Positions 14,842-54,366 of a stretch of 64,000 nt of DNA are shown here, in pieces. Position numbers and translations under genes: made by a program. The notes under the pieces are model-generated. The model saw only the letters and a list, made by a program, of their open reading frames with translations, did not search any database and was not told the origin of the DNA. The first letter of the stretch is position 1; the number at the start of each line of letters is the position of its first letter. The DNA is from Sphaerolaimus hirsutus (taxonomy: Eukaryota > Nematoda > Chromadorea > Monhysterida > Sphaerolaimidae). The DNA lies in assembly GCA_964036195.1 (NCBI GenBank), contig OZ038450.1, positions 24,519,208 through 24,583,207 on the forward strand. The letters run 5' to 3'.

Positions 14842-15088
14842 TACATATGTACATTTTACAGCCACATGCGCACGTCCGAGCACTTTTACAGGGATTTAAA
14901 TATGTCTACAGGGACAAATCTGCTGATAATTTGAAGGGCATGTAGGGAATTGCGCGCCCAAATATATAACAAATCGCCCCCCCCCAAAAAAAAAAATTTC
15001 CCAGCTATATATCTATCTCGGAGGCCACTCAGCTATCTTCTAAATACCTAACTGTCCCAGCGGAATTTTTTTTTGCCTAATATCCATA

Positions 15089-15180
15089 GGCCCCACGCAC
15101 ACTAGTTTACTGGCGTTTTCAGTTTACTGGCGGTAAACTCCATTTTTTAGTTTACCGGCTAAATTCACGCATAGTAAAAG
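15089..15180. repeat. Left terminal region of the Harbinger-like element
   Basis: The terminal GGCCCCACGCACACTAGTTT is followed by four further AGTTTAC or GTAAACT words within 90 bp. Such subterminal repeats are typical transposase-binding sites. Confidence 0.5.
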
Positions 15181-15944
15181 TGGGCGGAGTTTAGGCCGCC
15201 ATCTTTATTTTTTTCAAGTTTGCCTGTGATGTGAATTTACGCTGTAAACATTTATTTCTAATTTCTTTAATTGTGGAAGAACGGAGCATTGTTTATGCAA
15301 TTTTTTTGCGTCATCGTGTACAGTACGTTGTGTAGATGTTGTCAAAATTTTTAAAATATTTTTAAGTGCAACATTGGATTTTTTATTGAATTTATCATTT
15401 TTTTGTGGAAATAAATTTTTATAAAATCACCTGTTACGTTTTTTCGTTTATTGAAACGTTCTAAATTATCAGTTTTCTTTGCGCTATCGATTGGTGTACA
15501 CAGCGGACATGAAATATAAACTTTCGATTTTTTATGATTTTATTTCAATTAAACGCAAATAAATCACTAGCACGTGAACGGAAAGCCCGAATCCGGAAAA
15601 AAAAATCACACATGAAAGAGGAACATTAGCTGCACACATCACACAATTTTTTGCGGCGTGAAACGAAAGACTTTGCGAATTATGATTTAATCACAATTAA
15701 AAAAGAAAAAATCAGCCAAAAATCGAATAGTGAATGAAAATTGTCCATTCAACGACAGTGTACTACATAACAACCATTATAACCGGTTGCAATCGAAAAA
15801 TGAAGTGTAGCTGTAGCAGATAGCATGAAAATGAATTTTTTGTATTTGTTACATCAGTTTACCATTCCAGTGCCACTTTAATGCTAACTGCCACTGCAAC
15901 GGAAATATTTCAGTTTGATTTTTATATTCAACGTAGTTGCAAAT

Positions 15945-18429
15945 TCAGCAGTCAGCGGGATTCACCCACGGAACACGACCGGCGTCCGTCATCATCCACT
16001 CCTTGATTGCATCCCTGATGGGGCGCGCATCTCTTTCGTCAACGTCCCTTCGGATTGGCACGTTATCGATCGTATCCATGTTGTCGTACACTGGTCGCCA
16101 CTGCAGCTGTGTATGGGAATGAATTTATGTGATGTTGAATTGTAACAGTGAATATGCAAGGTAAACTTACATTTCGCTCAACAGTGTCGTTCGGGTCATC
16201 TTGTGGTTTTTCATCGCCATTTTCATCAAATTGGTTGGCAGCACTTTCCCCGCGGATATCACGCAGCCAATTGTGCAGGTGGCAACAGGCCATAACCAGT
16301 CTTTGTACGCGTGGCGGTTCCATCGCGATACAGGTCATCAGTATGCGCCATCTGCCAGCCAAAATACCAAAGACGCATTCGACAGTGCGCCTAGCTCGGG
16401 ATAAGCTGCAGTAGTTGCAGTCAAATTTAGATTTCAGTTTTACCAAACAACGCTTCTTTCACAATATTCAAACACACCGATAGTTGAAGTGTCGCTGGCT
16501 GTCATCTGCATGCAGCGCATATGGCACCATACACCACTTGCGCAACGCGAACGCTTGATCACCCACAAAATAACTCGGAATGGTATTTGCAGGTTCGTTG
16601 GCATCTGCACCGGGCAGCAAGCACGGTGGCGCCATAAGCATTCTGCCATGTCTGTGTAAATGTATCACTTTTATCATGTGTAAATGTATAGCACCTCATT
16701 GGAACATGTCAAAAAGGATGTAAACTCACATCAAATCCTGCCCGAAATCAGACGTGATCAGCACAGCACCATCTGCTTGTGACCCCGGCATACCGATGTC
16801 CACGTACTGAATTTTCAAATCTGCGCTGGCGCTGATGAACAGTATAATCGACGAGAAGCCCTTGTAGCACCAGTATCTTGTTCCACCCTCTGCAAGGCGT
16901 TTTTCATTTACTTTTGTAACTGTAAACATTTCCACCTCACTGCACAGTTTCCCATCACTGTGAATTTAGTCATTTTTCTACAGTCGCCAGACCGTCGCCA
17001 GACCGTCGCCATTTCGTCGCGCAATTTGGCCCTTTTTTAAAAAAAATCATAACTTTTTTTTGGATCACTTTTATGAGAAGCCAGGTACGTCAGAAGAAGC
17101 GCAATTTTTTTCTCTACAAGTACATCCAAAAATCATTTGCACAACATTCCCATGACCCAAATGAAGTTACTTTCAAATCGGTGGGGGTTGCGGTTAAACT
17201 CAAGCAAAAGCGACGATTTTGCGACGTTTGCGACGCAAAATGCGACGAAAAGCGACGTTTTCACAAAATAATTTGCAACCTTGGTAAACTGGCGACTATT
17301 TATGATTGAAGGCGACGCACGCGTCGCAAGCGTCGCAAGCGTCGCAAATGCGACGCTTAGTTTACCGTGACGTTGCATACGACTCACCATGTTTATGTTT
17401 ACTGGAAACAACACACATGAGGGCAAAAGTAGAATGCGTAAAATGATATGTACTTACCAGCGGGTTTGCGAATACGGATGTGTTTGCCATCCAGACTCCC
17501 CACACAGTTTGGCATCTGCCACAGTTTCCAGTATTGCTGCGCGAAATCTTTCATTTGCCCTAAATCACTCCCCATAGGTTTCAAGTGGTCCTTCAAAACT
17601 TTCACTATTCCGGTGGACACTTCGTCAATAATCGTTCTAATCGTAGCGCCGGAAATCTGTAAATGTTTTTCCAAAATACAATGAACTATAAAGCAATCTA
17701 AAAGCTTGAAAAATGGTATCACCTGTGACTGGCCGGCACAATCTTCAACTTCCCGGCCATTTGCGCATGTATACAGAAAGTAAAACAGTCGCATTTCTGT
17801 TGTCACTACAGCAATGTGTCTTCTTTCATCTCGTGTTCTCAGGTACTGTTCACCAGTTTCAGGGTCGACAGCTGTAAGCATCGCGTGCAGCTGTTCGAAT
17901 TCAGTTGGCCACAGCTGTAATTAATTTGTAATCATTGTGAACGTTATCGGTAAACTGAGTTCATTCATACATATCAGTTTACTGTTCGATTGCGTTGTAA
18001 ACAATAACATGAAAATGTCACAACACAGTAAGTGATGTTATATACGTCTGTATATTTTACGTAAATAACAGAAATTGTGAAACAACGAACCCTGCACAGT
18101 TTGTAAAACCATGCTGGATCGGTGTTTTTGCAGGCAATAACAGCTCGCCAGTAATTGCCCCTGGAGCGCGCCCTTTCTAGTAAATACGGTGTCATGTACT
18201 TTTTCCTGCCCTGATCACCCTGTTCTTGCGCGGCATTCTGCTGTTCCTGCTCTTGTTCTTCGTCGTCGTTGTCCACATCATACGAAAACAACGTGTTCCC
18301 GACTGCCAAAAAAGCGGCTAAAATTTGTCTCTTCTGATTGTGCGTTAGTGGCGCAGTTCCATCCAAATTCCGCTCTAGCGCTTCGTTCATTCTTTGCATT
18401 TGTCCCAAAACGGATTCATCGTGCGCCAT
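15945..18429 (-). CDS. PIF/Harbinger DDE transposase, seven exons, 486 aa
   Basis: Exons (minus strand): 18429-18091, 17914-17723, 17656-17458, 16889-16730, 16651-16478, 16405-16171 and 16106-15945. All have GT-AG introns and keep frame (1461 nt including the stop). The product is a HARBI1/DDE_Tnp_4 family transposase, a nuclear cut-and-paste enzyme. The N-terminal about 110 residues are acidic and helical and end NTDPAWFYKL. Catalytic blocks are PNCVGSLDGKH (Asp about 233), QYVDIGMPGSQADG (second Asp, about 274 or shortly after), the conserved SYFVGDQAFALRKW block, and RARRTVECVFGILAGRW (Glu about 364). The family tail RDAIKEWM is present before the stop. About 490 aa is slightly longer than the usual 350-450 because of the acidic N-terminus. 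No stop or frameshift is seen, so it may be functional or recently so. Confidence 0.9.
16976..17372. repeat. CGTCGC/GCGACG-rich cluster in transposase intron 3
   Basis: The intron between transposase exons 3 and 4 contains three CCAGACCGTCGC-like units at its acceptor-proximal side. A dense run of GCGACG and CGTCGCAAG words follows, ending CGACGCTTAGTTTACCGTGA. The same two motifs occur together near the element's right end (32.1-32.4 kb). This may be a regulatory or transposase-binding array, or an internal copy of terminal sequence. Confidence 0.5.
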
Positions 18430-18681
18430 TTTGAAACGTTTTTTTGGGGACAGTTTTTGTAAATCGATATTTCAGATTTCTGGCGATATGCCAGACATTT
18501 CTGGCATGTAGCCAGAAATGAAACATGTCATTAAAAAAAGTAACCATGAATAACATAAAATTGTATCACGACGTGTCACTTTTTTTTGTCACAAATCCAT
18601 ATCTTTCACAGATAAGAAATAAAAAGCGAAAATTTTGTGGAAAAGTGAAAAATAGACCGTTTGATTGATTTCGCGTCGAAA
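18430..18681. promoter_or_regulatory. Divergent promoter region with nested palindromes
   Basis: Only 252 bp separate the start codons of the transposase (minus) and the large gene (plus), so both promoters must lie here. At 18476-18519 the half-site TTTCTGGC appears repeatedly in both orientations (ATTTCTGGCGATATGCCAG, then ATTTCTGGCATGTAGCCAGA), forming two overlapping palindromes. This looks like a dimeric protein-binding site that could control both genes. No clear TATA box was assigned. Confidence 0.5.
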
Positions 18682-19954
18682 ATGGTCCGAACTTTGAGCG
18701 GTATGGCGCGCGGCCGATCGCAAAACGTTTCCGCGACCGCGGAAACGACTTCGGATGGCGGCAAAGGCAAAAATGGAAACAAACGTGGATGGCCGCCAAA
18801 GCAGAAAACTGAGAGCCAGCCCCCAGAACAGGTTACTCATCCGATTTCTTTGGTTATCTTACCATTTCTTTTCATGCATTTTCTAGTTATCATTTTTGTT
18901 TGAGTACAAGTGTGTTTTGGACATCTGCCAATTTATCTACAATTTGCGAATGTTTACAAGCCAACGCGATATTTACAATCCAAGATAAGCCAACCAATGT
19001 TTACAAATCGTTTGCCCCACTTCAGACCGTTCCGACTGGACCGCCCGTGCGCGGCCGAGGCACAAACATGCGCACCAGAGGGCAGGCCGCGCAGAGTTCT
19101 CAGCGCGACATTTCCGAGCCTCAGCGCGTGCTTGTCCCCGACGATCACCTCGCACATTCGTTTGGCAGGGTTTTGTCGCAGGTTTGCTACTTATATTTGT
19201 ACGGGTTTCTGAACTTTTTCTACACACACAGTTTATTCTTTATTTGAAATTTGTCTAAATTCAGCTCTAATTTAGCAAACTTCTGTGCTTTTTTGTAAAC
19301 TCACATTTCATTTGTTTCAACTATGCGGAATTCTCTTTCCACCGTGTCAAAAGTGTACACAATGTTCCTTTTCAGGATTTGTTTGCGAGTCAGGACTCTC
19401 TGGCTGAGCCGGAAGTCCCGGCTGACGGTGACCGTTTGGAGGAGCAGGAAAAAGCGCGCGAGGAGGAAAGAGCGCGCCAGCAGAAATTGTCGATGGAGGA
19501 GCAAAGAAGGCTGAGAAAGTTGGAAAATGACAGAATCGGGGCGAAGCGGCGCAGAGACAAGAAGAGGCTGCAATTGAAAGAGAAAAAAATGGTTTGTCAT
19601 TTTTTCTTTATTTGAATACGTTCTCTTTCAGGCATTACCTCACTGTACACTTTCATGAAAGTTTGCGCAACGTGAACTACTGTTGCTGTTTTCACCACTT
19701 ATGTAAAAAGTAGATGTAAACTGATGTTGCCATGACAGTGTAACTTTGCACACTGTGACAGACATACTGTAGCACCTTTTACCCATTATGTAACATGTAG
19801 ATGTAAACTGATAGTTTGATCACACACACACTGTCACTTTGCAGCAGGAGCTGCAACGGCAGGCACGTGAGGCAGCCACGAACGTGTACGGTGGTCCCCT
19901 TGTGCCGTCCGCAGTGGTTGCACCCGCTGCAAGCACTACGGCTTCCGTGTCCAT

Positions 19955-20001
<47 letters not shown>

Positions 20002-23000
20002 TCGTACCGCCCGCCAAGGAATTGCCCGTGAAAACTGTCGTTGTTGGGGGTTCGCGGTCCCCGACGCCGACAGTTTGCCAAGACACTGCCACAGCCGAGA
20101 AGGCCAAGCCTTCGACACCGACAGTTGGCCAAGACGCTGCCGCAGCCGAGAAGCCAAAGCGAAAGTGGGCGCTCTTCGTTTGTGACAAGCCGCGGTGTCA
20201 CGGTATTTATGTTAGTTTACTTTCAGTAAGAATTCTTTCAGTGTTCTTGAGACATGTTTTAGACGTTTCTGAATGTGTTGCAGGATGAGGAAGAGCGCGC
20301 GGCGATGGAGGCCGGCCTACCAATTCCGCCGGAAAGCCCCGGGAAGATTGCGGAAAAGAAGCGCTTGAGGGAGGAGCACAACAGGACGTGCGAGTACAGA
20401 ACTGCCCCTGTGAATGAAGTAAGTTTACTTCCTTACTTTCATCCTTATTGCACTTTGTTTTCGTTAAATGTAAATTTTAAGTATGCGGAAGTTTCAATAT
20501 AAGAATGTTCAGTTTGGTAAATTCTTCAATAGATGTACTCTTACGTATTTCAGTATGGCGATCCGATCGTGCCAGATAAGCGCACTGACCGGCAACCGAA
20601 AAGCAGTGGCGTGCAGAAGGTGAAGGGCACAATCACCGCCGAAGTTAGTTCAGTACGATTGTTTTTTGGTGAAATATGGAGACGTATACTAATCAAAAAA
20701 GTAGGGAAATGGGCTCATATTTATATTTTTGTTATACCAAAAATCGGTCATGTAAAATGACTTTTTCCCATAATTCCGTTTCTAAGTTTTGGCAAACTCT
20801 GCGTATATGTATGAAATCAAAAAGTGTCTGACAGGGTTCCATATATAGTTTTGTTCAACCAAAATGTTTCATGTGAGATCCATTTTTCACATGTTTCTCT
20901 TTTGAAAATTTTTCACCTTCTGCATATTCCGTTGGAATCGAAAGTGTCTAAGTGGCTTCCATATTTATATTTGTGTATAACCAAAATCTTTCATGTGAAA
21001 TAAAATTTCACCATGTTTCTGTTTTGAAAATTTTGCACATTCTGCAGGTATGTTTGGAATCAAAAAATGTCTAAGTGGGTTCCATATTTAAATTTTTGTT
21101 ATACCAAAATCCTTCTGTAAAATCACTTTTTCCCATACTTCTCTTTTTAAAATTGTTCACCTCATGCATCAGAAGTTGGAATCAAAAATGTCTCAGTGTG
21201 TGCCATATATATATTTTTCAGCCATCAAAATTCTCACTGTTTCACTGGCTCACAATTTTAATTGGTTCTTAGAAAGGTGTAGATTGATGGAATCGAAAAT
21301 GTCTCTGTCTGTTCCATATATATATTTTTCAGCCATCAAATTTCTCACTGTTTCACTGGCTGACAATTTTAATTGGTTCTTAGAAAGGTGTATATTCTTG
21401 GAATCAAAAATGTCTCAGTGTGTGCCATATATATATTTTTCAGCGATCAAAATGCCCACTTTTTCACTGTCTTAAAATTTTAATTGTTTCTTACAAAGTG
21501 AGAATTACATTGGCTGAATCGAAACTGGCTTCAACTGCTCTGATTTTATAATTTTGTATTTACAAAATTATACATGGCTAATTTCCTTTTGCAAAACATA
21601 TTCTCAAAATGTTTCTCCTATTTCGCAGACCCTGCAAGAAATCCGGAACGAGTTGGCCATGCCAACGTGCACTACCCCGTTGCCGGCCATGTACAAAGAC
21701 GGTACTCTTTTCTAACTGTCAGTTTAACATGGAAACGAAACATTCATTGTAACGTGCTCTTTGTGCAGATGTTTTGGACGAGGGCCAGGGCTGGGTTCAC
21801 TCGGGTCCCGGTGACGACGGTTGGATTCGGCACACGACGAGGACACCGGGCCCGTTTTGCCCCGTTCCAATTTACCACCGCACAGATTCGCTTCCGCGTC
21901 GCCTGATGGATATCGTTAGCCCGACACTGTTTACCATTTTACTGTTAACTTTTTTCGAATAACTTTCTGAATGGCAGGTAGGCCGTTCGACAGTGTAAGT
22001 TTAACTGTAAGTGGCACTTACCATTTAAAGTTTTTTGTAGCTTCTAGAACTATTAACTGTGCACTTTCCCGGTGTTGGTGAAAGGAAGGTGGATTCTGAT
22101 TTCAACTAATTATTAAGCATGTACATCGCTTAAGTACATGCACCATCTATACCTTTTTTCCCTCATTTTCGGTGTCATTCTTTGGTGTTAGTTAGCTTCC
22201 CTGTAATCCAGCTTCTGTTGTACTAATGGTCATGCACACACTACTTTACCGCAACATTTTTGTAAACTGATACCTCAACTTATAACGCATTTGCGTTTCA
22301 TACAGTGATGTCTCTGGCAACTGCAGTCAATGAATAAACCATTTCAGTGAACTGAAATGCGTTCAAAGCTGCTTTATCAGTTTACCTACATGTGGCAGTA
22401 AACTAGCGTGTGCATGCGCTACTGCCTACTTTACAGCTTTTTCTAATGCAAAATTCTTTCAACATTTCTCATTTTTTCAGGGTGCAAACGAGCGTGTTCC
22501 GTGGTGGGCGGATAAGCAGAACCCACCCGAGAATGCCGAGCCCGACATGCCCGCCGAGCCCGCCAAGCCCGCCGAGCCTGTCCGGACCGCACCGCCGGGC
22601 AAACCCGCTGACACAGCCACGCCCACAGCGTCCGACGTGAAGCGAAATTTGAATTTTGACAATAGTAAAGTGAGTTTGCAGTTCTGTTGCGCTTTCCGAG
22701 ACATTTATTACAAGAACGGTTCACTTTTAAGCAGTACTTTCTGAACATCACAGTTCTCTGTATAAAAGGGGGGAATCAGTTGGTTCAGTGTTTCACATGT
22801 AGCGATTGACAGGATGGGTACGCTGCAGGTCACGCGGAACGAGCTCTGTCACCATGCGCTCATAAGCCTTCTCTTTCTTTTCGAGCAACTTAGTGTGTTC
22901 CAACAGAAACTCCGTAGCTTTACTGGCCATATGCATCTTGCCCGTAAACTGGTTCACTGTGTTCACCAGTTTCTGCACTTGCGTGTTCACGTGTACGATG

Positions 23001-26000
23001 TTGTTCTCGGTGGTTTTCGTGAAGTTGATGAGCTCATCCATCTGCATTTTGAAAGAAATGGGAAAAAACCGTATTTCTTGAAGAATAACACGTGATCAAC
23101 TTTGACAAATTTTTGTCAACATGGTCAGTTTTTACTGCACTGTAAACTAACAGCTTGAAATGGTGTCATTCTGGGGCCTGCATCCTCCTCACTCCTGTCA
23201 ATACTCATGCCTTCCGCTGTGGACACTGAAGTTCCGCTTTGCACTTGTGTTGTTTGATTGGGTGTAGACGCACCGGGTACCGGAAAACGAAAACTGTGCT
23301 TGTGTACACACTGTTACATTTTCTCATACACAAACCTTATCACATAAGAACTGTTTGCTGCACCTGCAATCACAAAAAGCATTTAGCAGTGTGAAAAGTG
23401 AAACCCGCTAATGTCATGTTTCAGGGAAAATGATCAAGGCATGCATTTTTAGTGTTTGGTGGCAGTCTCAAGCAGAATGTTGTTGCATAAATCCTTGTCC
23501 AAAACGATCATACGTCACTATTTGGAGCACATTCTTTATTAGAATGTGCTGTTTAAATTTTAATTGGTTCTTGATAGGCAGGTAGCTTTAGAGAAACGAT
23601 ACTGAAATGTGTACACAAGCACCTGTTTGGGGGCGGTGGTGGAAAGGGGTAGGCTGAGGTGTTCGTTGTGGCGGGAAACTGGAACATGCCATGTGAGAAA
23701 GTGCGACTGAAATCGGACTGCGACTGTTGCGCAGCGTAAGGCCCGCTGGATTGCTGCCCTTGCTGCGACATGACGCTCTTGTTCCCAACTGCCAGTGAAT
23801 TAAGTTGTTCAGTTAGGCTAGGCATACTGCTTTTATTCTGTTGTATGACACGTTAGACGTGTGCGCACTTCCGACTTAAATTTTTTTCAGACTGCCCGCC
23901 CGCCATCGGAGTATGATCTGACGCTGACTGAGAAGGTGACGTTTGACTTTTGGACATTTAAATTTTGGACATTTACATTTTGGACATTTTTTGCTTGAAC
24001 CCACATCATTCATGTTTCAAGCACGCACTGTACACATGAATGTCATGCTAAAAATACCTGTGTGCAGTTGACAGGGTTGTGTTACCTTCATTATTTGAAA
24101 CACGCGGTTTTTAACAACCGTGTGTCATTCTCACGTTTAAATGTTTCGGACATATTTTGCTTGAACCCAAATCTTTCATGTTTCAAGCACACACTGTAGA
24201 AACCTTGCACGATTTCTTCCATACAGCAAAACACTATAAATCTGGAAATATTCGTGTATTTACATGAAAATATTACAGCGAAAATTTATTTGAAACGCAC
24301 TGTAGTTAAACAGTGTGTCATTGTCAGTAGGATTCAAAGGGGATTGAGTTTTCGGGATCGGGATCGGGATTGGGATCGGGATGGGCATGGGAATCGGCAT
24401 ACGGATGGGGATTGGGATCGGGATCGGGATGGGGATTGGGATCGGGATGGGGATCGGGATGGGGATTGGGATAGGGACTTGAACCCAAATCTTTCATGTT
24501 TCAAGCACACACTGTAGACACCTTGCACGATTTCTTCCATACAGCAAAACAAATTGTGCAAATATTTGTGTATTTACATGAAAATATTACAGCGAAAATT
24601 TATTTGAAACGCACTGTACTTAAACAGTGTGTCATTGTCAGTAGAATTCAAGGGGGATTGAGTTTTCGGGATCGGGATCGGGATTGGGATCGGGATGGGC
24701 ATGGGAATCGGGATGGGAATCACGTTCCTCACAGTAAACGTGATTTGCTTGAACCCGCTTCTTTCATGTTTCAAGCACACATTATAGACACACATTCCAC
24801 TATTTCGACAATACAAATGGAGATTCAAGCGATTCGTGTGTAGGCCCACACTGCAAGCTTGCCGTTATTTGGAACACACTGTGTTAAAAACAGTGTGTTA
24901 TTTTCAAAACGGTTCAAAGGGAATTTACTTATCGTGATGGGGATCGGGATGGGGATCGGGATCGGCATACGAATGGGGATCGGGATAGGGACTTGAACCC
25001 ACATCTATCATGTTTCAAGCAGTAACTATATACACACGTTGCACTATTTCTATATTCAAAACTCTCTAGCGAACCAAGCGTTGCTATGGGTTGCCAGAAC
25101 ATAAATGCATCCTCTATTTGGAACACACTGTGTTTAAAAACAGTGTGTTATTTTCAGTACGGTTAAAACGGAATTTACTTAGAAGGGATCGGGATGGGGA
25201 TGGGGATCGGGAATGCCAAACCCCAGACTTTCACGGGATATGGGTTCTCACAGTAAACATGATTTGCTTGAACCCACACATTTCATCTTTCAAGCAGTAA
25301 CTATATAGACACATTCCACGATTTGTACCGTTCTAAAATCCACCAGCGAGTCTTGCTGTATACATGAATTTGAAACACACTGTGTTTTAAAACACTGTGT
25401 AATTGTCACTGCAAAACACTACTTTGAAATATCTCTCAGGCAAAGCTCGAGTACGAGCGACACGTGGCGCTGAAGAGCAAGGCGTCCAAAAGCAAAAGGA
25501 GCCTGCACGAAGAACGCGTGAAAAAAGAAAATGGGCGCGCCAAGGTGAAGTGGGACGACTGGGAGGTTAATTTAACTTGGGTACACACGCTGAACTGCAA
25601 ACTGTGTGCTGGAAACGTCATAAATCAGCTTTGAATGCATGTCAGTTCACCAAAATAATGTATATGTCAAACGCAATTACTGGGGCATAACTCATTCAAG
25701 TAAACTGCAATCCGTTCCAAACACATTTATGAATGCCTACAAGCACAAAGTTTGCAGTTTACCATGTGCATGCGCAGATGTAGTAAACTTCTTTTTAAGT
25801 TCTCTTTACATGAAACAGTAAACTTAGCGTTGTAAACTGCAGGACGATGATGACGACTTCATCACGCCGCGGTACAGTCAGACCGCCAAGTCGCCACCGA
25901 GCGCAGTGGACGTGGAAATGGAAAGGCGGAGGAAGGAAAATGCCAAGAGACTGGAGGAGCAAACGAGGGCGCTGGCTGCACAGGTCGCTAAAGTGGTACG

Positions 26001-29000
26001 TTTAAATGACCGTTTTTGACATTTTCAAAAGAAGAGTTTGCATTTACAGTAGCACTTTCTTGTATACAGCAAGTGCCAGTCATCGGCCGCAACAACAGCA
26101 GCGTGCGCCGCTCTCGCGTGAATGCCACAAAGCAACTGAAACAGCTTCAGGATGGCCAAGTGGACGAGGACGATCCACAGAAGGACAAGGACTGGGTGGA
26201 GGACTTCACCCAGCAGGATGATGACCAAGAGGTAGCTTACGATTCGGACCCCTTCGGTTTGGATAGTTCCGGATCGTGCATAATTGTGACTTTCCCATAC
26301 ATTTTCAGTTACGTGACAATCTCACATACCTCCCGTAACTCAGGAAATGAATCCGTTGGGGCCGCGCGGCCGCGGGCCCAACGACGGGTCGCAAACGCCA
26401 TCCGATGACGATGAGCGGTTGCTGGCGGTGGCCCAGTCAAAGACTGAAAAGCGCCCGAGCAAGCTGAAAGTGGCCGGGAAAAAACCGAAAAAACCGGTGA
26501 CAGTCACACACCGTCTGCAAGTAAATGTAAACTGTTGCTTGCCTTGCAATTCGTACAATATCATGATAAAACGGTTAGCCGGAAGGCTACCTGTATTTAA
26601 CAGGATATTTACAAACGTGCATGGCTGGAAACAGTATACTGGACAGTTAAGACGGTGTGTGAGTGACCTCAGATTACCGGCGATGTGAGCCGCGTCGGCG
26701 TCGGAGGCCGGCCGAGCGTGCTGATTCCGGCCGAGAAATCGGAAGAATTCTGGGAGAAGTTCCACGAGCTGTTCCAGAAATACCCGCTGTTTGTTTCTGT
26801 TTGTATTTTTTTATCACACAAGTAAATGGACGTTGTGAACACGTACATTACTCACAGGTGCTGGAGCATGAAGGAGTGCACCAAGTACGACCTGCATCAC
26901 CCGGAAAGGCAAACGAACGTTAGTTGCAGTTTACCGCTTACTTTCATTTGAGAGTTAAAGATTCCTTTCTGTAACCACTCTTTCATTTCTTTTTTCAGCG
27001 GTCCGATCACCCGGCGGTGAACAGGTCGTGGAACAACTTCACGAGGGAGAGCTACTTCGAGCCCCCGTACGACAACTACCCCGACAACAAGATGTGGTTG
27101 ACCCGCGAGGTGGCGAACGAGTCCGCCAAAACAAACCAGAACGCTCTGGTGGCCCGCCGCGGCATGTTGCAGTCGATGTGGGACACGAAAAAGCGGCAGT
27201 TCAAGGTTAACCATGTTTTAGACTTCTCAGTTTACAGTTGACGAGTACTGCTGTGTCAAATTTCTGTATGCCGTTTTACGGCAAGTGCGGGAAATGTATC
27301 TGTTTCCCTTTTTCTGGCAAGTGCAAAACATTTCGCAGTATTTGTTTTTGTGCAAGTGCAAACAGCTTTCAGTTTCCGTTTTACAGCAAGTGAAAACAAT
27401 CTTTTACTTTCAGTTTCAAGTAAGCAACTTTGTTTTACACCGTACACGTAACACTGTTTCACTGTCCTTTCAGAGAGCGTTGACCCAAGCGCGCATACTT
27501 TACGGCGGCCGTCTGAGCGGCGTGTCAAACGAGGACCTCGGGGCGCACTACTACAAGAGGATCATGGAGCTCAATTTCACGACTCTGAAGCACATGGACT
27601 ACTATGCAGACGAGTCCGGTGAGTTTACCCTTTCCGGGCCATGTAGATGTAAACTTCGCATTTGCATTACGCAAAAATGGTACAACTACTCAGTGTTTCC
27701 CAACATCGTGGAACGCATGCGCAGTCAGGGCCGCACCGCTGAACAAAAAGCCGCCATTCCGAAAGTGGCGCCAGGAGAACTGCCCCAGGTTGATTCAGAT
27801 AAGCCTTGCGTCAGTGAATTATCACAGTTTGGGGAACAGTACTAACCTTTTCAACACGTTTATTCAGATCAGCCGGCGCGAGCTGGGGCACTACGCGTGG
27901 AAAATCGAGTTGGACAAGGTGCGAACCGACTTGAAGGCGGACATCGTGTTTACCCTGGTGCACCAAATGCGGCAATCGGAGGCCCAGGCTATGCAACTGG
28001 CGGAAGAAATGATCCAGTTCTCCACCATGCCCATGATTGTGTTCAAAGACGGAAAGGCCAGTAGATGTTGGTTTACTGAAATGTATCATTTAATGTTGTT
28101 TTTATGTTTGTACGTTTGTAGCAGTGGTTGTGCACTTTACAGCGACCGATTGGCGCCGGGCAATGCAAGTTTACTGGCACAACGTGTGCCAGGGAAACTT
28201 CTACATCATGCTGGGCAAATTGGTAAAAACCACGTTCACGCCGGAGAAAATTGAGCCGCAAAGTATGGCGGTGCAACTCGTGGATTACCGAGTGAAACAG
28301 GCTGCGAGTGCCGTTCCCCCCGCGCCAGGGACGGTGCAAACGGTCGATAGCCCACCGCCGGAGGACTTTCACGAGGCGCCCGACATGGCGCAGGACAACG
28401 CGCCCATCATGGCGCAGGACAACGCGCCCATCATGGCGCAGGACAACAACCAGGTGCGAGTTGCATGAATGTAACAGGAAAATTGTAAGGAGTGAATAAA
28501 AATGTACTTTGTGTTAACGTTAAAGTGTAATAGTAAATTGTTTTTGTTAACTGTTACGTTTTGACCATTATAGTTTTATTTCCCGTTTTTAATATACACT
28601 TTTTTAAATTGCCGTAACCACCGCCAGACATGCCGCGAGCACGAGCCGTTGAGGAACCCCCAGTTTCACAGCGTGCTGAAACAGTTCGCGCCCATTATCG
28701 ACAAGATGGACGTTGCAGCGATCCGTGCAATGCGCCAAAATATGGAAAGGATGCTGTCGCAGTGCACCCAATCGGTAAACTATTCTTTATTGTCATGTAT
28801 TCAGTCAATTCTACCATATCTTTCAAATGTGCTAATTTGCAGAGCACAAGCGTGAATGCGGACAGCGTGAAGCGCAGCAAACTGCCCTGCATTTGCTCCT
28901 TCATCAAGAACATACGGTTCATCGGCGTGGTGCAGCAGGAAATCAGCGTGATCAACACGCTGCTGAAGGCCGATATGAACAAGTTCTGTGACATGATCGA

Positions 29001-31025
29001 GGACTTCATCATGAACCAGGTTATTTGATTGATAAACATTTTGAGAATGGAGTGTGTGTGTTTTCGGGACTGTTGCCTTGAACGTATCTCAACGTCACCA
29101 CTTAAAAGTAGGAAAAAGTAATTTACTTGAAACATTTCGTAAATGATGTTAACTTTTCGTAGGAATCCGCCAATACTGGAACGACCAGTTTGCCGATCGT
29201 TGCGGCTCCGCCTGCCAATCCGTCTGGCAGTGCGCTGCTCGAACGCTGCCGCCGCAGGACCAGCGGGCTCGTTGTGTCGCCCCTCGCCGCGCCGCAAAAG
29301 AACGCGGAAATGGACTACAACGTCACGCCGGTGCAGGTGAGTATAACGGTGGTGTTTCATGATGTACGTAAACAGCATGTAACTAACAACCCTGTACTAA
29401 CTACTAATGTTACTTACATCAGAAAACAAAGCCGGGCAACTTTGCGTTTCCGCAGCAGGAGGCGAAAGTTGCCGAACCGGACCAAGATGACAGTCTGGTA
29501 CAATACCTGGCTGAAATTGTGAGGATTGCACTGTTTCTTTTGTGTCAACAAACTACTTAAGATGCATCTTTTGGTAAATTGAAAATGTGTAATTTAAAAG
29601 ATTTACTTCTTGTTACTTTTGATGAAATCCAATTTACACATTCTTATACATATTTCGGTAAATCAGTGTGCACAGTGGTACTTATTTGTAGTACTGCATT
29701 TCTTTATGATTATGATAAAGTGACATATCGTACTTACAGCCGACGCAACAACTGGACCAACTTGCCGGGTCTATGAAAAAAGCCAAGAAATCCGTGCCGA
29801 CGGAAAAGGGCAAATTGCCCACCGTGCAGAAATTGCCGACTCCGCAACAGAACGTGCAAGCACCGAGTTTGCCGTACACGTCACCGGTGAATGTGAACAC
29901 AGCGACGACCATCACCGCACACTTGATGCAAAGGCAGGCTTCCGAGGTTGCCCTGGCTGCCAAGCTTCAGGCGACCCGCTTTGAAGTGCAGCACTTGCAG
30001 CAAGCCCTGCAAAACGTTAACGTTAGTAAGACATTTCATTACTTCTTCATGTGCAATACCATATGCAAATTGAAATTTCTCATGTATATTCGCAGTCGTG
30101 CCACCAGGTCAATGACACTGAAGACGGCATCACGTACTCGTTTGTGGCATCGCAGGCGCCGCAGCGGCAGCATCAACAGCTGCAGTATGCCGAGGTGACT
30201 GACAGTTTCTGTTTTTTTTTCCTACTTATAATTCAGTGTTAAGAAGCAAGTAAATTCTATCCGCTTTTTTACAGCCCGCTGAAATGGACTGCGAGAACGA
30301 CGATGGCGTCGTGCTGTTGCAAAGTGCCCAGAAACGCACTGGCCAGCCTGTACCGGACACAGAATGTGCTGCGAAGCGGTACCGCCTGACAGTAAGTTTC
30401 TGTCTGCAGTGCTTCTGTTGTACAACTTTGTTGCCATTATAAAATGATAATATAAACTCAGAATCAGACTGCTGCCAGTTCCCCGGCCAGCGCGCGCAAA
30501 AGTGCAAAGAAGAGCGAGCAAGCTGCTGCCGGGACCAAAACGGTTAGGAAAGAAAATTGCTTCGATATTTTGCTTCGTACTGTAATCTATGTTTACAGTA
30601 TGAAAATGTGCAGACAAGCGAACCGCCGCCGACCAGTGAACAGCGCCGTACCGTGCCACAGCCGATCCGCCAATCGCGCGCCGGTACGACGCCGCGCAAT
30701 TGCCCTTTGGATGAGGAGGGCTACGCAAAACGACTGGCGGTACGTCTTGGGTTCAATTGTGGTTTTCGGTGTTGTACATGTTTCTATGTGCAGTGTCTAC
30801 TAGACTTTAGTATTTCTACAGTAATTGATATGTACAGTCCCCAGTGTGCATATATATATATCTGGGCAACAGTTGGAAACTTTTCTATAAGTTTACCATT
30901 ACAGATGTTCATAGATGTAAACTGTTTACTTCTTTTTAACAAATAGAACGGTATACTGAAATTGCACACATTCTCAGGCGATCAATGAAGACTACTATGA
31001 GGAACTGGAGGATTTTGATGATTGA
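18682..31025 (+). CDS. 31-exon gene for a 1552-aa protein of unknown function
   Basis: I do not recognise this protein. My exon chain: 18682-18831, 19026-19181, 19376-19591, 19845-20177, 20284-20418, 20554-20643, 21629-21701, 21769-21914, 22481-22669, 23891-23935, 25440-25565, 25843-25995, 26070-26231, 26344-26520, 26673-26788, 26858-26918, 26999-27205, 27474-27618, 27694-27788, 27868-28060, 28125-28453, 28628-28774, 28843-29019, 29163-29336, 29423-29518, 29740-30021, 30096-30194, 30275-30391, 30462-30542, 30599-30739, 30978-31025. It totals 4659 nt in one frame, with 26 of 30 introns phase 0. The N-terminus is basic (GNKRGWPPKQK). Exon 3 is a charged helix, exon 4 holds a Pro-Ala repeat, and exon 12 begins DDDDD. 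The most globular part is exons 15-21, with WEKFHELFQKYPL, a Cys/His segment CWSMKECTKYDLHH, and TDWRRAMQVYWHNVCQGNFY. The end is acidic (EDYYEELEDFDD). It could be two genes: an AATAAA occurs in the intron after exon 21. Confidence 0.7.
19953..20001 (+). repeat. Hexanucleotide (CCCGCG)n repeat coding Pro-Ala
   Basis: About eight CCCGCG units in exon 4 of the large gene encode alternating Pro-Ala. This would form a stiff extended linker and is likely length-variable. Confidence 0.8.
20685..21500 (+). repeat. Intronic tandem array, about seven units of 110-122 bp
   Basis: Units start near 20690, 20812, 20934, 21054, 21176, 21289 and 21399. Each has the skeleton GGAATCAAAAATGTCT, then TTCCATATATATATTTT, then a CAAAAT/TTTCA segment. 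The last three are near-identical and the first ones diverged. The array fills the intron between exons 6 and 7 of the large gene and has no credible coding content. Confidence 0.8.
22398..22418. repeat. Internal copy of the right-end TIR core
   Basis: GTAAACTAGCGTGT here is identical to 32371-32384 at the candidate right terminus. It lies in the intron between exons 8 and 9 of the large gene. It may be an internal binding site or the relic of an older element end. Confidence 0.5.
22793..23825 (-). CDS. Nested antisense gene, 197-aa coiled-coil protein
   Basis: Three minus-strand exons, 23825-23623, 23293-23152 and 23041-22793, join in frame (594 nt with stop, introns phase 2 then 0, GT-AG). 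The gene lies wholly within the intron between exons 9 and 10 of the large plus-strand gene. The N-terminus is Gln/Ser/Pro-rich with a PPPPP run, the middle is polar (IDRSEEDAGP), and the last 83 residues form a long amphipathic helix (QVQKLVNTVNQFTGKM, then EHTKLLEKKEKAYERMVTEL). A coiled coil points to dimerisation or to binding another protein, perhaps the transposase or the large protein. No known family is recognised. Confidence 0.6.
23990..25435 (+). repeat. Intronic tandem repeats of 170-320 bp containing (GGGATC)n blocks
   Basis: The phrase CTTGAACCCACATCTTTCAT, with variants, recurs near 23993, 24161, 24479, 24749, 24992 and 25268, each time followed by TGTTTCAAGCA and an inverted pair AACACACTGT/ACAGTGTGT. 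Between copies lie blocks of GGGATC/GGGATT repeats (24344-24476, 24666-24720, 24938-24985, 25188-25212). The array occupies most of the intron between exons 10 and 11 of the large gene. The GGGATC word is shared with the hAT MITE at 33567-34176. Confidence 0.75.
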
Positions 31026-31172
31026 AATGTGTTTTTTTTGGTAATGTGAAAGGGGCGTGTGCCTCTGTGCATGTTTACCCCATGTGCATGTCAGCGGTAT
31101 TCTACATGTTGACTTTCCACGACGCTCCAGGGGATTCGGTAGACTCCTCTGGAGCAATTGATAGTTCTTACA

Positions 31173-31178
31173 AATAAA
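31173..31178 (+). terminator. AATAAA polyadenylation signal for the large gene
   Basis: AATAAA lies about 150 bp after the TGA at 31023-31025 and is the first clear signal downstream. A 45-bp stretch at 31110-31155 (CGACGCTCCAGGGGATTCGG, later mirrored by TCTGGAGC) forms a weak hairpin just before it. Confidence 0.5.
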
Positions 31179-32100
31179 ACACATGGACTAGTCGTTTCAA
31201 AGGTGAAAATATATAAAAAGTTATGGAAATTGTCGAATTTGAGTTAAAATTATGGTCCACATGCACACTGGGTTTACATGCACAGAAGGCTTCAGTCATG
31301 TGAAAGTGCTGAAAGTAGTGAATACGTTTTAATGCAGTTTCTTATCATTTTACGTTTTCATACAGTTCCTTTTTTGTAACATTTCCATCATTCGCAAATT
31401 ATCACATTTCAAAGTGAAAACGTTATGTACTTTTTAAGTTTCTTCCGTATACAATTGTCAAATTTCGCATTGTGAGATAGGTAAACAAGTTTTAAATTTT
31501 GCTCAAAAGTGTAACTCTTGTCAACAGCAATATAGTCTTGTTTTTGTTTTTTCTTAGTTTTTGTTACAGCGAGAAGGAGAATGATTTCTTTTTACAGTTT
31601 TAGATTTAAATTGAAAATTGGCGAGTACAAAGTTTGGATTTTTTTTTGTCGCACTTCCTTTCTTTTTGTCGAAGCAAGAAGGAGAATGATTTCTTTTTTT
31701 ACAGTTTTAGATATACATTGAAAATTCGCGAGTACAAAGTTTGGATTTTATTTTGTCGCACTTGCATTTCTTTTTGTCGAACTTACATACAAATCACGTG
31801 TCCATGTAATTTTTAATTTTTCTATCCGTAACAACATGATGAAATCACGCAATAAATCTGTTAGGTAGATTTCAATTTGTAAATTGAAGTAAAAAGTAAC
31901 AAAAACGAATTATTAACAGTCACGATAAAAAACGAAATATCAACAGTCACGATAAAGAACAAATGTTAGCAGACACACACAAACGTAATTGTCACGTCTA
32001 AATTGTCTACGTTTCGCAACAAAGATACGTTAGGGAATTTGAAAAGTGAAAAAATTAGTTTACTGCTCACCTGATAAGTCTCGGGGAATAAATCCTTCCT
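31179..32100. other. AT-rich 3' part of the Harbinger-like element, with a two-copy tandem repeat
   Basis: No gene. A unit of about 105 bp (GAAGGAGAATGATTTCTTTT, then GAGTACAAAGTTTGGATTTT, then TTTTGTCGCACTT) is present twice at about 31571-31785. Confidence 0.5.
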
Positions 32101-32392
32101 TATTTTTGGCTGTACGACGCGTCGCGAGTCGCATACGACGCGTCGCGCGACGAATGCGACGCGTCGCATAATCGTCACTTCCAGTTTACCCAGCTGTGTC
32201 ACATTTGTGTGTAATTGTGCGACGCGTCGCACTTTTGTGACTTGCTGAAACCACTAACCCCAGAAAGTGAAACACCAACGTAAACTAAAGTACACACGTC
32301 GATCAAAAATGTAAACCGACGCGCGACGCGTCGCGTTTCAGTTTACATTTTTGATCGACGTGCCGTGTTGGTAAACTAGCGTGTACAGCCAC
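32100..32392. repeat. Right subterminal region: GACGCGTCGC repeats, a hairpin and the TIR
   Basis: GACGCGTCGC or a variant occurs at least five times in 32115-32335. A perfect 22-bp inverted repeat (32295-32316 and 32341-32362, arm CACGTCGATCAAAAATGTAA plus AC) encloses a 24-nt CG-rich loop. Nine bases on, GTAAACTAGCGTGTACAGCC begins the terminal inverted repeat that ends at 32392. Confidence 0.6.
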
Positions 32393-32763
32393 ATAGTTGT
32401 AAAAACGTATTTATATTTACTCGAAAAATATGTACTGTATATCCTCAAATAAGTACCCCTTTTGTGAGTGAGGAAAAAATGGCCCCCTCGAATAATTCCC
32501 CCACTTTGATGTTTCGGAAACATTTCACAACATTTCACATTTACAAAGAATGTGGAGTTCACTAGCCTTGATTTCTCTGGTTGATTTGTAAAAATTGGAA
32601 TTTTTGTAAAATTTTAGTAAAATTGTATAAAAAATCGAATTTTTGTAAAATTGTACAAAAATTCATATTTTTTGGTAAAATTTTCATTGTGTTGTTTGAG
32701 TTTCTACTTGTCTGTTTTAGGAACTGGGGGCTGTACCAAGCCCTGTGAAGTGTTAAACGTCAT

Positions 32764-33566: not shown

Positions 33567-34176
33567 TAGGGTTCAAACGGGATTGACTTTTCGGGATCGG
33601 GATCGGGATTCACTTTTTGAGATTTCGGGATCGGGATCGGGATTAGGGTTTCGGGATCGGGATCGGGATTAGGGTTTCGGGATCAGGATCGGGATTGGTA
33701 TTTTGAGATTTCGGGATCGGGATCGGGATCGGCATTGGCCGGGATTGGGGTCACGGGATCGGGATTGGCATTGGCATTTTTTCGGGATCGGGATTGGGGT
33801 CTAGGGATAGCGATTTTCGTCACTGTTCTGGCATTCACAGTTGTTCATAAAGGTCTCAAAACACTGTTGCATGCCAGAAAAGTGACATAAAATGGACGCT
33901 GGGGGTTTGCGTTCACATTTTTGCACGCAAAAATGTCGTTTTTTCACTTTTTAAAATTTCCACTATTTTTTCCGGGATCGGGATCCCGGACTTGGGAGAT
34001 TCTCGGGATCGGGATCAGGATTTGAAAGTTTTCGGGATCGGGATCGGGATTGGTATTTTTGGATTTCAGGATCGGGATCATGATCGGGATTGGGGTTTCG
34101 GGATCGGGATCGGGACTGCTAAATCCCGGAATTTCACGGGATCCGGGATCGGGATCGGGATCCCGTTTGAACCCTA
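33567..34176. mobile_element. 610-bp hAT-type MITE with (GGGATC)n interior
   Basis: The ends are TAGGGTTCAAACGGGAT and its inverse ATCCCGTTTGAACCCTA. The flanking 8-mers are TATATAAG on both sides, a perfect 8-bp target duplication as made by hAT transposases. TAGGG fits the hAT terminus consensus. Most of the interior is GGGATCGGGATC-type repeats separated by short unique patches; 33790-33960 is the largest unique part. Non-autonomous. Confidence 0.85.
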
Positions 34177-35886
34177 TATATAAGCACATACATACAGTCA
34201 AGTATAGCTGAAAATTGGCAAAAATCTGATGAACCAGTGAATTTGAAGGTGAATATAGGCAAAAAGCAATGAAAATGTGTGTGTCTTTGAGTCAAAATTA
34301 GACCAAATTTCTTTAAAATACTCACTTTTATGTTTTCAGGTAAACACAAGTATTTTACTCATGCAGGGCCTCTGCAAATTTTTTACATTTCAGGTGAAAT
34401 TTCAACAATTTTTTTTCATTTCTTGCAAAATTGCTGCAATTTTTTTCCATTCCTGGCAATTTTTTTTTTGCAATTTTCTCGGTTTCCATGCAAATTATGA
34501 TTGGTTTGCATTTTCGGTTTGCATTTGATTGGTATGCAAAAAACAACATCGAGTTGAAAAAAAACACGTTTTTTCTAACCCTAATCCGAACAGAGCCTAT
34601 CCTTTTTTCCCCACTAAGTAGTTACACCTTTTAGACATACTAAGCACCACTCTTTATGACCAGAGTTTTTAAAACTGCTGAACTTTTATATATATATATA
34701 AAAATACTTCTACTCGGAGTGCAGGAAATGGTAAATATGCTACTTTTTGCATATATTTGCAAACATCACACTTAGTATGGAAACCTACAATAGCCCATCT
34801 GAATAATAAACAGGGGTTTAGTAGGGGGGTATCCCGGAGGCCCGCTCAGCTATCTATCTATCCCGGAGGCAAAATTTTGGGCTACTATCCCCAACCCCCC
34901 CTCCCAAATCGGCCAGCTATCTACCTATCTGGAGCAATTTTTGAGAATCTGTACCCCAATTTTCGCTCAAAATCACAATTTTTCATACCTTTATATAGAT
35001 TTTATCCTCCAAAATCAATAGTTCAATGTGTCTTACTGCCTATACCACTTTTTTTGTCAAATACCGCTAGCGCTTTTTTCACCGTTTGGCGCTTTTTTCA
35101 CGCTTTTTTTAAGTGGTAGCCCCAAGCACCAAAAGCGCTATGGCGCTTTGAGCAATAGCGGCGCCAAGCACCATGGCTCTTTTTGCTTAGGTGCTAGCAC
35201 CATTATGCTTTTCCATCACTACTCATAACCAGCTTTAAGAAGACATGGTTGTCAAAAATAATGTCTTTATGCATTCCCTCAAGCATTGTTTCAAGCACTC
35301 CTTGCCCCCCCCCCCAGTTCAAGTTTTTCAGATGGCAAAATGACACTTTTGAGTGGCACCATTTTTGCCACGTTTCCATTGATAGGTATCACTAATCTGA
35401 ACATAAAAATGGTATCCTTACATTTGCCTGATAAATTTAAGTGCTGAATGTTCAAAATCCGATGAAAAATGACATCAAAACAGCACATCAAAATTTGTTT
35501 GTCGGAGGCCTCGCTAGCGAGGCGTTCCGACAAAAAGTTTGACAAATCACAATTCTGCAAACATGTGCATGGTGACATTGTCATCACAAGCTGTGAACGT
35601 GTTTTTTTGTGACAACAAAGCACCCCAGTTATTTCAAAGAAGCCCTCAAAAATGCCAAACAATGTGTGGCACATGAAGCAAAAAATCGGTGCCAACAATA
35701 TCATATGATTATAAAATTAAAAATCTTTTTTTTGGGTGCAAAATGCAATAGGTTAAATATGCAAATTTTTCTCTGTCGGAGGTATTGAGGCTGATTTTTG
35801 TCGCAGTTATCAAGGCCGATTTGTCGTCACACACGCAAAATTTGCCATTTTCATCGAAAAAATGTCCGTGACGACACAAATTTTTT
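34177..35886. other. Intergenic, repeat fragments only
   Basis: No gene is supported. 34800-34940 contains CTATCTATCCCGGAGGC-type fragments, also seen at 15000-15060. 35480-35880 belongs to the old dispersed family shared with 13.2-13.6 kb. Confidence 0.35.
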
Positions 35887-52400: not shown

Positions 52401-54366
52401 CATTCTCTGTGCCAGCTTGATTCAGATGGTATCTGACGGTCAGCACCAGCAGCGCTGGGCTGCAGATTATGCCAAATGGCACTCTGGCAAATCTGTATAT
52501 CTGAATATTGTCCTCCATAGATGGTTTCGTGGGATCCTTGTACCACAGAAATCTTGTCACATCTCTGTCATTGTCCTGCAGACTGATCTGCAGAAATGCT
52601 TTCTCTATGTCTGCGACCAGTGCAATTCCATGCAATCGGAATCGCATCAGCATCCCTACCAGCTGTGTTAGTATCACTGGGCCGCAGTACATGCACTCAT
52701 TCAAGCTTGGCATGCCTGGCAGTTTTGCTGAGGCATCATATACCTCTCTGACCTTTGTGGTAGTTTTCTCTGGCGTTATCACTGGTTGATGAGGCAGAAT
52801 ATGGAACTTTCTACCATCCATAATATCCTCTTGAACTTTCTCAATCACTCCTTGCTCCTCTTGTGCTTTCATGATTGCCTGAATTTTCTCCAGTAATTCT
52901 GGGTCTCTCTTGAGCCTGTTAGTGAGGTACCTGAACCTCTTGAACGCCATTGCTTTGTTGTCTGGAAGTTCATGCAAATTCGGCTTGTACATGAACTTTA
53001 CAGAGTACCGACCATCTGGGTTTCTCTGTACACTTTCATTGAATTGCTTGATAGCCTCATCATCCTCGACGAGGTCTGGCTGATCCATTATGCCAATGGT
53101 ATCCAGTCTGTCCATGTCTTTGACATTTGGTACAGGAGCAATTGACAATGGTGCTTCCTCATACCACTTTTCTCTCTGAAATTGATGCACCACCATTTGA
53201 TGAGTATTGACCACCACCGGATATGCGCCATCCGTGGTCCATTGATTCCTGTTGCTTGTCAGCTGTCCACCGCCCATCAGTAATCCCAATTCCGATGGAA
53301 TTACATACAATCCTGACGGAAGTCTGGTGGTGCTGGTGTATCTGGACATCAAGTCCCAGAAATAATTCAAGCCCACAATAATATTTGGCTTGAATGTGCA
53401 CTCTGTCCCTTTCTCCTTGGGAATTCTGTTTGCAAAATAACTCTCATCCGGGAAGTACTTCTGCAGGTACTTTTCATCCTGTTCTGACACAGGCACTTTG
53501 ACTTGTTCTGTGGTCAACGTCGGGACCACATCAGCCACCATATCAATTTTCTGGCCATTTCTGAGCCGCATTCTGAATTCCACTTGCTGTACTACTTTAT
53601 AGTGCGGCTTTTCATTTCCGAATGTGTACACCTGGATGTGGTGTTCACCTGTACTCTTCAAATTGAGTTTCTTGGCCACTTTCTCTAACATGTACGTTCC
53701 CTGGGACCCTGTGTCCAGGAATGCTTGAATCTGTAGCGGCGGCTGTTCAGGCTCCATCTCTGTATCCATTTCTGAAGCCTCAATCACTGTTCTAGCTGTC
53801 ATCAACATTGACATATTCCTGTTTACTGACAGGTTTACTGACGTATTCTGTTGCTTTGCATTTGGTTCTGTAACCACTGTGCTGGATATGGTTTCTGTTT
53901 CTACCATTTCTGGTCCAGCTTCTTCCACATTGACACAATTCACTGTGGCTTTTCTCTGCTGGCTCTGTGCTGGTTGACCAACTGTCGGCACAGACTTTCT
54001 GCCATTGTTTGCTGATTGCTGGCCATTCTGTTGACCATTTGCTCTGAATGCTGGAACTTGCCGTCCAGAATTTCCATATCCATTGTCTCCAAACTTCTCT
54101 GGGCACACTGCACTGTGGTGCCTATTGGATTTGCAATAGAAACAATTTCTCGTAAATTGACACTGAGCCATGTAATGCCCTTTCTGCAGGCATCTCATGC
54201 ATCGCTCTGCCTTTGACAAAATCATTCTCCTTTCTCTGGCAGTTTTGAACTTTGGACACTTATCATTGAAGTGTAATTGCTGTGTGTCATTACAGAACAC
54301 ACACGGCCTCCCAGGATTCATGAATCCAGCCTGCAGTGCACTCTGACCATTCTGGATCACAGACAT
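49411..54366 (-). pseudogene. pol: BEL/Pao pol (zinc knuckles, protease, RT, RNase H, integrase), broken
   Basis: Starting from the ATG at 54366, two knuckles CMRCLQKGHYMAQC and CFYCKSNRHHSAVC near 54150 are followed by protease (FLDTGSQGTYM, near 53715). RT follows (YDASAKLPGMPSLNECMYCGP-type start, then LVADIEKAFLQI near 52610, with catalytic box YVDN at 52366-52377). The frame then has TAA at 52321-52323, TGA at 51577-51579 and TAG at 51187-51189, all in frame. The stretch between these stops carries the YDPxG-like CFDPMGLVGPVLLPAKRF motif, then the RNase H region with TAAYLCQK, and HIAGLENPADVATRS. A one-base shift near 50.9 kb leads into integrase: finger with HAGVQH and CPTC, first Asp in TGLDYLGP, second Asp position changed (ISNNAMQF), Glu in WQGGVYERM. 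Confidence 0.85.

Follow-up and report, generated by a model that had tools for sequence, protein, structure and literature searches.

The window analysed here is a stretch of 64,000 nucleotides from the nematode Sphaerolaimus hirsutus (contig OZ038450.1 of assembly GCA_964036195.1), and this report concerns its positions 15089-32392. The segment carries a DDE_Tnp_4 transposase gene on the minus strand and, diverging from it on the plus strand, a large orphan gene of 31 exons, both lying between partly matching terminal repeats. It represents a complete copy of a Harbinger-superfamily (PHIS) DNA transposon, 17.3 kb long, that has been active recently. We consider it very likely that the two parts of this description hold jointly, namely that the segment is a mobile element and that the large gene has been selected together with it. 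The features are collected in Table 1.

A Harbinger-superfamily element and its copies

The transposase matches PF13359 with an E value of 4e-26, which bears out the complete DDE Harbinger transposase of the original prediction. Unspliced-frame Pfam scans with stops written as X (three plus-strand frames and one minus-strand frame) gave no match, even for the transposase, and spliced models were therefore used. The gene models came from a splice script based on codon use and splice signals and were then tidied by hand; the fourth transposase exon was placed by hand. In the protein database, 91 relatives of the transposase were found at E <= 0.001 (6319 candidates), with 28-43% identity across the aligned portion. 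The named ones are mostly HARBI1- or ALP1-like and come from insects and other animals, and none of the 91 is one of the host's own proteins. When the transposase is aligned with seven relatives from the database, some of which carry the name HARBI1 or ALP1-like, the motifs DGKH, GxxGxxxD and RRxxExxFG are invariant.

For the large gene, the script returned 34 segments; three spurious ones (two of them empty, the third 6 nt long) were dropped, and one acceptor was shifted by hand. The original prediction, a 31-exon model of 1552 residues, was known before this tidying; the model from the script agrees with it in exon number and is slightly longer, at 1565 residues. The start codons of the divergent pair lie at 18429 (minus) and 18682 (plus), and the 252 bp between them make a shared promoter plausible. 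Homology queries were made with a 1560-aa hand-edited version of the large protein. Two database searches found no homologue: one used residues 680-1250 and scored the best 7998 candidates, and the other used a 338-aa piece, with 1197 candidates and an E cut-off of 1. The whole protein matched no Pfam family at E <= 0.5, and its pieces gave sub-threshold Pfam matches only. Neither the large nor the small protein described below matched Myb/SANT, though a very divergent domain of this type may escape such scans. A single match of the large protein to the PDB was judged to be due to chance, and one stretch with a bZIP-like look had no bZIP match in the Pfam scans. Rfam and tRNA scans gave no match.

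We searched the 348-Mb assembly (762 contigs) for further copies; the candidate numbers given here are first-look counts and not confirmed copies. The search for the transposase family gave at least 163 matches (150 scored out of 306 candidates, all lower bounds). Among the 150 matches listed, the 131 long ones mostly score almost alike; the other 19 are partial or belong to another family. Thirteen of the listed matches form a second group at about 33 bits (C1:28878154, labelled G000, and others); a 1.7-kb stretch at one of these had no DNA match to the element. Probes for the two ends found what the earlier reading had proposed to look for, namely copies sharing the same ends: the left-end probe gave 281 candidates, of which 40 were scored, all 99-100% identical, and the right-end probe gave 268, of which 40 were scored at 98-100%. 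With the left-end probe (15080-15480), the match begins at query position 7 or 10, corresponding to the 3-bp flank and to 15089 respectively, in 26 of the 39 other loci; the remaining starts, at query 1-6, are attributed to chance similarity of the flank. With the right-end probe (32000-32400), 35 of 39 other loci stop at 393-395, which corresponds to 32392 plus chance flank, and four stop at 398-400.

The two ends belong together. A long-match transposase lies within 40 kb and in the correct orientation at 37 of the 40 scored right ends, and the span from right end to transposase is 16.8-18.3 kb in 33 of them. Ten loci were fetched, and eight of these are colinear with the element from end to end. 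The ninth is a 3.8-kb derivative with an internal deletion (the C15 copy, which is the same locus as L006), and the tenth is rearranged, its right end falling outside the fetched stretch. With indels excluded, identity between the window copy and the eight other full copies is 98.5-99.4%. L007 and C42, in which both ends lie at a short distance, are probably further internal-deletion derivatives. The concern that the ends belong to different repeats is removed by the recurring spacing between right ends and transposase, and with it the idea that a host gene and two unrelated repeats lie side by side by chance, or that the arrangement is an assembly artefact; no observation spoke for this alternative, and against the recurring spacing and the colinearity of eight out of ten fetched loci it is already refuted.

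The large gene moves with the element. When a 586-bp piece of it was used as a probe, 105 candidates were obtained, of which 40 were scored, all at 99-100% identity, and 15 of these (window included) reached the full 1058 bits. A translated search of the genome with 338 aa gave at least 307 exon matches (119 scored out of 450 candidates). For one exon, a divergently oriented transposase is listed within 40 kb of 80 of the 91 listed loci, at 9-13 kb in 68 cases, so that several paralogous copies of the pair exist, which the earlier reading had suggested looking for, and the large gene is not a single-copy host gene. Eleven of the 91 listed loci lack a listed transposase; the one that was read (C6:7462937) is a deletion derivative that has the left end of the element.

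The terminal repeats are 22 bp long and imperfect, starting with GG on the left and GT on the right. The partial match noted earlier holds, in that 14 of 22 positions agree, with 12 of 13 at positions 10-22; among 200,000 random position pairs, 74 reach 14/22 and none reaches 12/13. The ATA flanks are likewise present on both sides of the window copy. To read the target site more broadly, we used 36 copies, made up of the window copy, nine fetched loci and 26 copies read by their ends (27 were read, and one was dropped when its left terminus was not found). Identical 3-bp flanks occur in 26 of the 36 within otherwise differing flanks: 15 ATT, 9 AAT, 1 TAT and 1 ATA, the last being the window copy. 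Thus 24 of the 26 intact duplications are AWT and fit ANT, the window ATA and the single TAT do not, and TTA or TAA occurs in none of the 26. Because the duplication is AWT and not TWA, the element appears to lie closest to the Pangu/Harbinger2 group, judged by target site. The superfamily named in the original prediction therefore stands on the strength of the DDE_Tnp_4 transposase, with the refinement that the target is Pangu/Harbinger2-like rather than canonical. Two points tell against this account of the ends. When the two end regions, 700 bp each, are aligned locally, the score does not rise above that of shuffled sequences (26, with a 95% point of 27), so that the ends are recognisable through the copies and not through the repeats alone, and the target-site duplications are unmatched in 10 of the 36 copies.

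Table 1. Positions of the element's features in the window
Feature	Position	Strand	Basis
Left target-site duplication, ATA	15086-15088	.	window copy and flank reading
Left terminal inverted repeat, GGCCCCACGCACACTAGTTTAC	15089-15110	+	14/22 match to right end; same end in other copies
AGTTTAC/GTAAACT, 40 sites in both orientations, 38 noncoding	15104-32377 (starts 15104 to 32371)	.	heptamer count
DDE_Tnp_4 transposase gene, 7 exons, 486 aa	15945-18429	-	splice model and PF13359 match
Transposase exons	18429-18091, 17914-17723, 17656-17458, 16889-16730, 16651-16478, 16405-16171, 16106-15945	-
Divergent intergenic region, 252 bp, presumed shared promoter	18430-18681	.	inferred from coordinates
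Orphan large gene, 31 exons, 1565 aa	18682-31025	+	splice model
Putative third gene, 4 exons, 178 aa, antisense in large-gene intron	22793-23825	-	model and dN/dS
Palindrome with 34-bp arms (91%), immediately inside right end	32295-32362	.	also in other scored right ends
Right terminal inverted repeat, read inward, GTGGCTGTACACGCTAGTTTAC	32371-32392	-	match to left end; right-end probe
Right target-site duplication, ATA	32393-32395	.	window copy and flank reading

Several further stretches were noted in the window. Clusters of CGACGCG/GCGTCGC-type words occur at 17208-17358 and 32113-32340, the right one beside the terminal palindrome, and the element has 15 copies of CGACGCG, with one more outside it. 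Inverted-repeat stretches resembling miniature inverted-repeat transposable elements lie within introns at 22231-22416 and about 25584-25800, and their ends resemble the terminal repeat of the element by eye. GGGATC-type hexamer repeats are found at 24350-25220, inside the element, and at 33580-34180, outside it. On the minus strand, 49613-54033 and 5133-6734 have a by-eye likeness to pieces of BEL/Pao-type pol and long terminal repeat (LTR)-type gag.

Selection on the element's genes

For the selection tests we used two older copies, a full copy of 93.5% identity (C3) and a fragment of 86% identity (C2, 14% diverged). The ratio of nonsynonymous to synonymous substitution rates (dN/dS) of the large gene is 0.56 against both, with confidence intervals of 0.45-0.69 for C3 and 0.46-0.69 for C2. 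Splice signals of the GT/GC..AG type are kept in all 30 large-gene introns of C3 and in 14 of the 18 introns tested in C2. Several frame-breaking indels occur in the large gene of C3 and several more in the C2 fragment, alongside one stop in the former and two in the latter; some of the divergence is therefore neutral, and the dN/dS values are upper estimates. The transposase gives 0.38 (0.22-0.64) against C3, in which it carries one stop, and 0.26 (0.12-0.56) among nine young copies. Its frame is intact in all eight other full copies, with no stop and no frame-breaking indel. The large gene is maintained by purifying selection together with the transposase.

The young copies supply the points that speak against such maintenance. 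Among the nine of them, the interval for dN/dS of the large gene includes 1 (0.83, 0.61-1.14), and in three of the eight other full copies the gene has frame-breaking indels, the frame being kept in the other five. In the same comparison, 2 stop changes were seen in the large gene versus about 7.7 expected under neutrality. The dN/dS value and the frame-breaking indels, together with the lack of a Pfam domain or homologue found for the large protein and the occurrence of deletion derivatives, are what one could cite for the gene being passive cargo, in other words a host gene that the element captured and that decays while it is carried along. Set against this are the intervals below 0.7 in both older comparisons, the conserved signals in 30/30 introns of the 93.5% copy, the joint presence of the pair at 80 of 91 listed loci, and the fact that no listed match was identified as a host gene (one of the 11 transposase-less loci having been read). 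We consider passive cargo very improbable. The word cargo in the original prediction was right in that the gene travels with the element, and too weak for a gene under purifying selection alongside the transposase.

At non-CpG positions, the exons of the large gene differ more among the young copies than the neighbouring introns do, at 4.6% versus 2.5% in the N-terminal part and 2.6% versus 1.6% in the C-terminal part; the middle exons hardly differ (0.5% versus 1.5% in introns). Diversifying selection, gene conversion and constrained introns are candidate causes of this pattern.

The small antisense gene is a probable third gene of the element. Its dN/dS is 0.27 (0.11-0.71) against C3 and 0.46 (0.12-1.71) among young copies, and its frame is open in seven of the eight other full copies, with one stop in the remaining copy. 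The predicted protein has a coiled-coil look by eye; it gave sub-threshold Pfam matches only, and no protein-database search was made with it.

The dispersed AGTTTAC motif and its possible reader

The heptamer AGTTTAC tops all 6114 heptamers for enrichment, with 40 occurrences in the element and 5 in the remaining 46.7 kb of the window. It is the core of both terminal repeats, equidistant from the ends. Its noncoding location (38 of 40 sites) has a P value of 1e-6, and Markov models of order 1-3 on noncoding DNA give means of 2.4, 3.2 and 6.0 sites and a maximum of 14, compared with the 38 observed.

The number of sites is exactly 40 in each of the eight other full copies, and among the nine full copies none of the 38 noncoding sites is variable, compared with 25.9% of 748 control sites (P 1e-5). 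The controls are CpG-free heptamers of the same composition, in a set that included the motif itself (about 27% without it), and the copies are related, so that the sites are not fully independent. Two intron stretches rich in repeats are omitted from the variability counts and from their controls. For older copies and short loci the controls exclude the motif: relative to the 93.5% copy, 7 of 38 sites are variable versus 41.8% of controls (P 0.002), with 32 of the 40 window sites kept, and at eight short loci the figures are 3 of 16 versus 54% (P 0.004). The orientations number 18 and 22 overall, and the introns contain 12 sense and 16 antisense sites; the lack of a clear strand bias favours recognition as DNA.

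Taken as a whole, we judge it likely that a Harbinger-type element, a selected large gene and self-recognition through AGTTTAC together explain the locus. The last component, that a protein of the element recognises the element's own DNA by this motif, is probable from its distribution and constancy. From what is known of the superfamily, the DDE transposase would excise the element at the terminal repeats and insert it at AWT. From the motif, AGTTTAC would be recognised by a DNA-binding protein that the element encodes and that coats the noncoding parts. The most likely binder would be the large protein, acting by itself or in concert with the small protein or the transposase, and we assign this role to the large protein tentatively. 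Coating might protect the element from host silencing, in the manner of VANC on VANDAL21, or might help to join ends that are 17 kb apart, as proposed for TnpA of En/Spm; the position of AGTTTAC within the terminal repeat, and not in same-orientation arrays, also suits the end-pairing role. The boldest version, in which the large orphan protein would bind about 40 AGTTTAC tags and thereby mark element DNA against host silencing, as an independent animal counterpart of plant VANC, is one we regard as unlikely. If true, it would explain both the large size of the element and the constrained noncoding motif.

Two other readers of the motif were weighed. AGTTTAC could be the site of a host transcription factor or an RNA splicing signal, as it is present in 13 of 30 large-gene introns and 4 of 6 transposase introns, and GTAAAC resembles forkhead sites and some splice donors. 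However, the motif also occurs in the terminal repeats and outside genes, its strand relative to transcription is not clearly biased, and the sites are spread across 17 kb rather than concentrated at the promoter, which makes this explanation quite unlikely. More weight, though still less than for the large protein, goes to the transposase itself as the binder, with the internal copies acting as extra or decoy sites that assemble, titrate or limit transposition, and the large protein doing something else. The core is equidistant from both ends, where a Harbinger-type transposase or its partner would be expected to bind, and internal sequences affect mPing transposition, according to a part of PMC9921582. 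This possibility leaves the selected 1565-aa partner unexplained, and we consider it rather unlikely.

Self-recognition through AGTTTAC by an element protein also has to be held up to several results that do not favour it. Pfam scans of the large protein, whole and in pieces, reveal no DNA-binding domain. With decayed copies included (19 distinct copies in all), variable sites number 6 of 38 (45% in controls, P 1.5e-4); in copy C6div, 1 of 16 sites is variable versus 23% (P 0.09), which is only suggestive; and in the 86% fragment the motif sites show no better conservation than the controls do (6 of 10 are variable, versus 68%, P 0.4). The motif is also found outside the element, 12 times in 31.7 kb of flanks of the full copies and the deletion derivative, and 5 of these sites fall in a single 2.1-kb stretch flanking copy C13 (L021/L022), a density like that of the element interior. 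This AGTTTAC-rich flank perhaps contains a fragment or a relative of the element.

Comparison with known systems

With its 17-kb length, recent activity and selected 31-exon orphan gene, the element breaks the size and partner rule of Harbinger elements. The repeat core, dispersed and invariant among young full copies, provides a handle on long-distance end recognition and silencing evasion, which, to our knowledge, have so far been worked out mainly in plants for cut-and-paste elements. The TnpA sites of En/Spm are subterminal, whereas the AGTTTAC sites lie along the whole element, and the two belong to different superfamilies. For TnpA, pairing of the ends has been proposed, as summarised in a part of PMC9921582.

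The VANDAL21/VANC21 system of Arabidopsis offers the closest precedent. In the portion of PMC5735166 consulted, the VANC21 motif YAGTATTAY is enriched in VANDAL21 noncoding DNA, and here, too, a short motif is enriched in the noncoding DNA of the element itself, as judged against 46.7 kb of the window (5 sites) and 31.7 kb of copy flanks (12 sites, 5 of them in one flank). The VANDAL21 motifs described there stand in the same orientation, often in tandem arrays, whereas AGTTTAC is dispersed, in both orientations and within the terminal repeat. VANC21 removes DNA methylation from VANDAL21, according to sections of PMC5735166 and PMC10398659; its binding and anti-silencing effect have been demonstrated in Arabidopsis, whereas the present element is of another type and in another host, and a corresponding role in it would be a predicted one.

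Harbinger-type elements with a further gene have precedents, as parts of PMC12730594 describe, in fungal PHISTA and other TET/JBP-bearing transposons and in oomycete HarbingerS, which carries a SET domain. The further gene in such elements acts on DNA methylation or chromatin (PMC12730594, same parts) and belongs to known enzyme families, unlike the orphan protein here.

Within the superfamily, passages of Han et al. (2015, PMC4482050) define Pangu by an ANT target duplication, with terminal repeats of 11-40 bp that usually start with AG or GG, and give mean lengths of about 3.5 kb for autonomous Pangu candidates and about 4.1 kb for canonical PIF/Harbinger; Harbinger-type elements there average about 4 kb and have a small DNA-binding partner. 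As in Pangu/Harbinger2 (PMC4482050, same passages), the present element has a DDE transposase, a 3-bp ANT target, a left repeat that starts with GG and a second gene without a known motif. It differs from Pangu in its length of 17.3 kb, its 31-exon, 1565-aa partner, a probable third gene and the dispersed motif drawn from the terminal-repeat core. With canonical PIF/Harbinger it shares the transposase superfamily, short imperfect terminal repeats and a 3-bp duplication, and it differs in having AWT instead of TWA, no Myb/SANT partner found and about four times the mean length. Giant Harbinger or Pangu elements were not found in the open-licence papers searched, and Harbinger is not mentioned in the main text of the giant-transposon review PMC6431247; the large multi-exon partner that was predicted to be a new architecture agrees with this, as neither the size, nor a selected 31-exon orphan partner, nor a dispersed terminal-repeat core was found in the open-licence literature searched. 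The element belongs to a known superfamily, and what appears to be new in it is its size, its selected 31-exon orphan partner and the dispersal of its terminal-repeat core.

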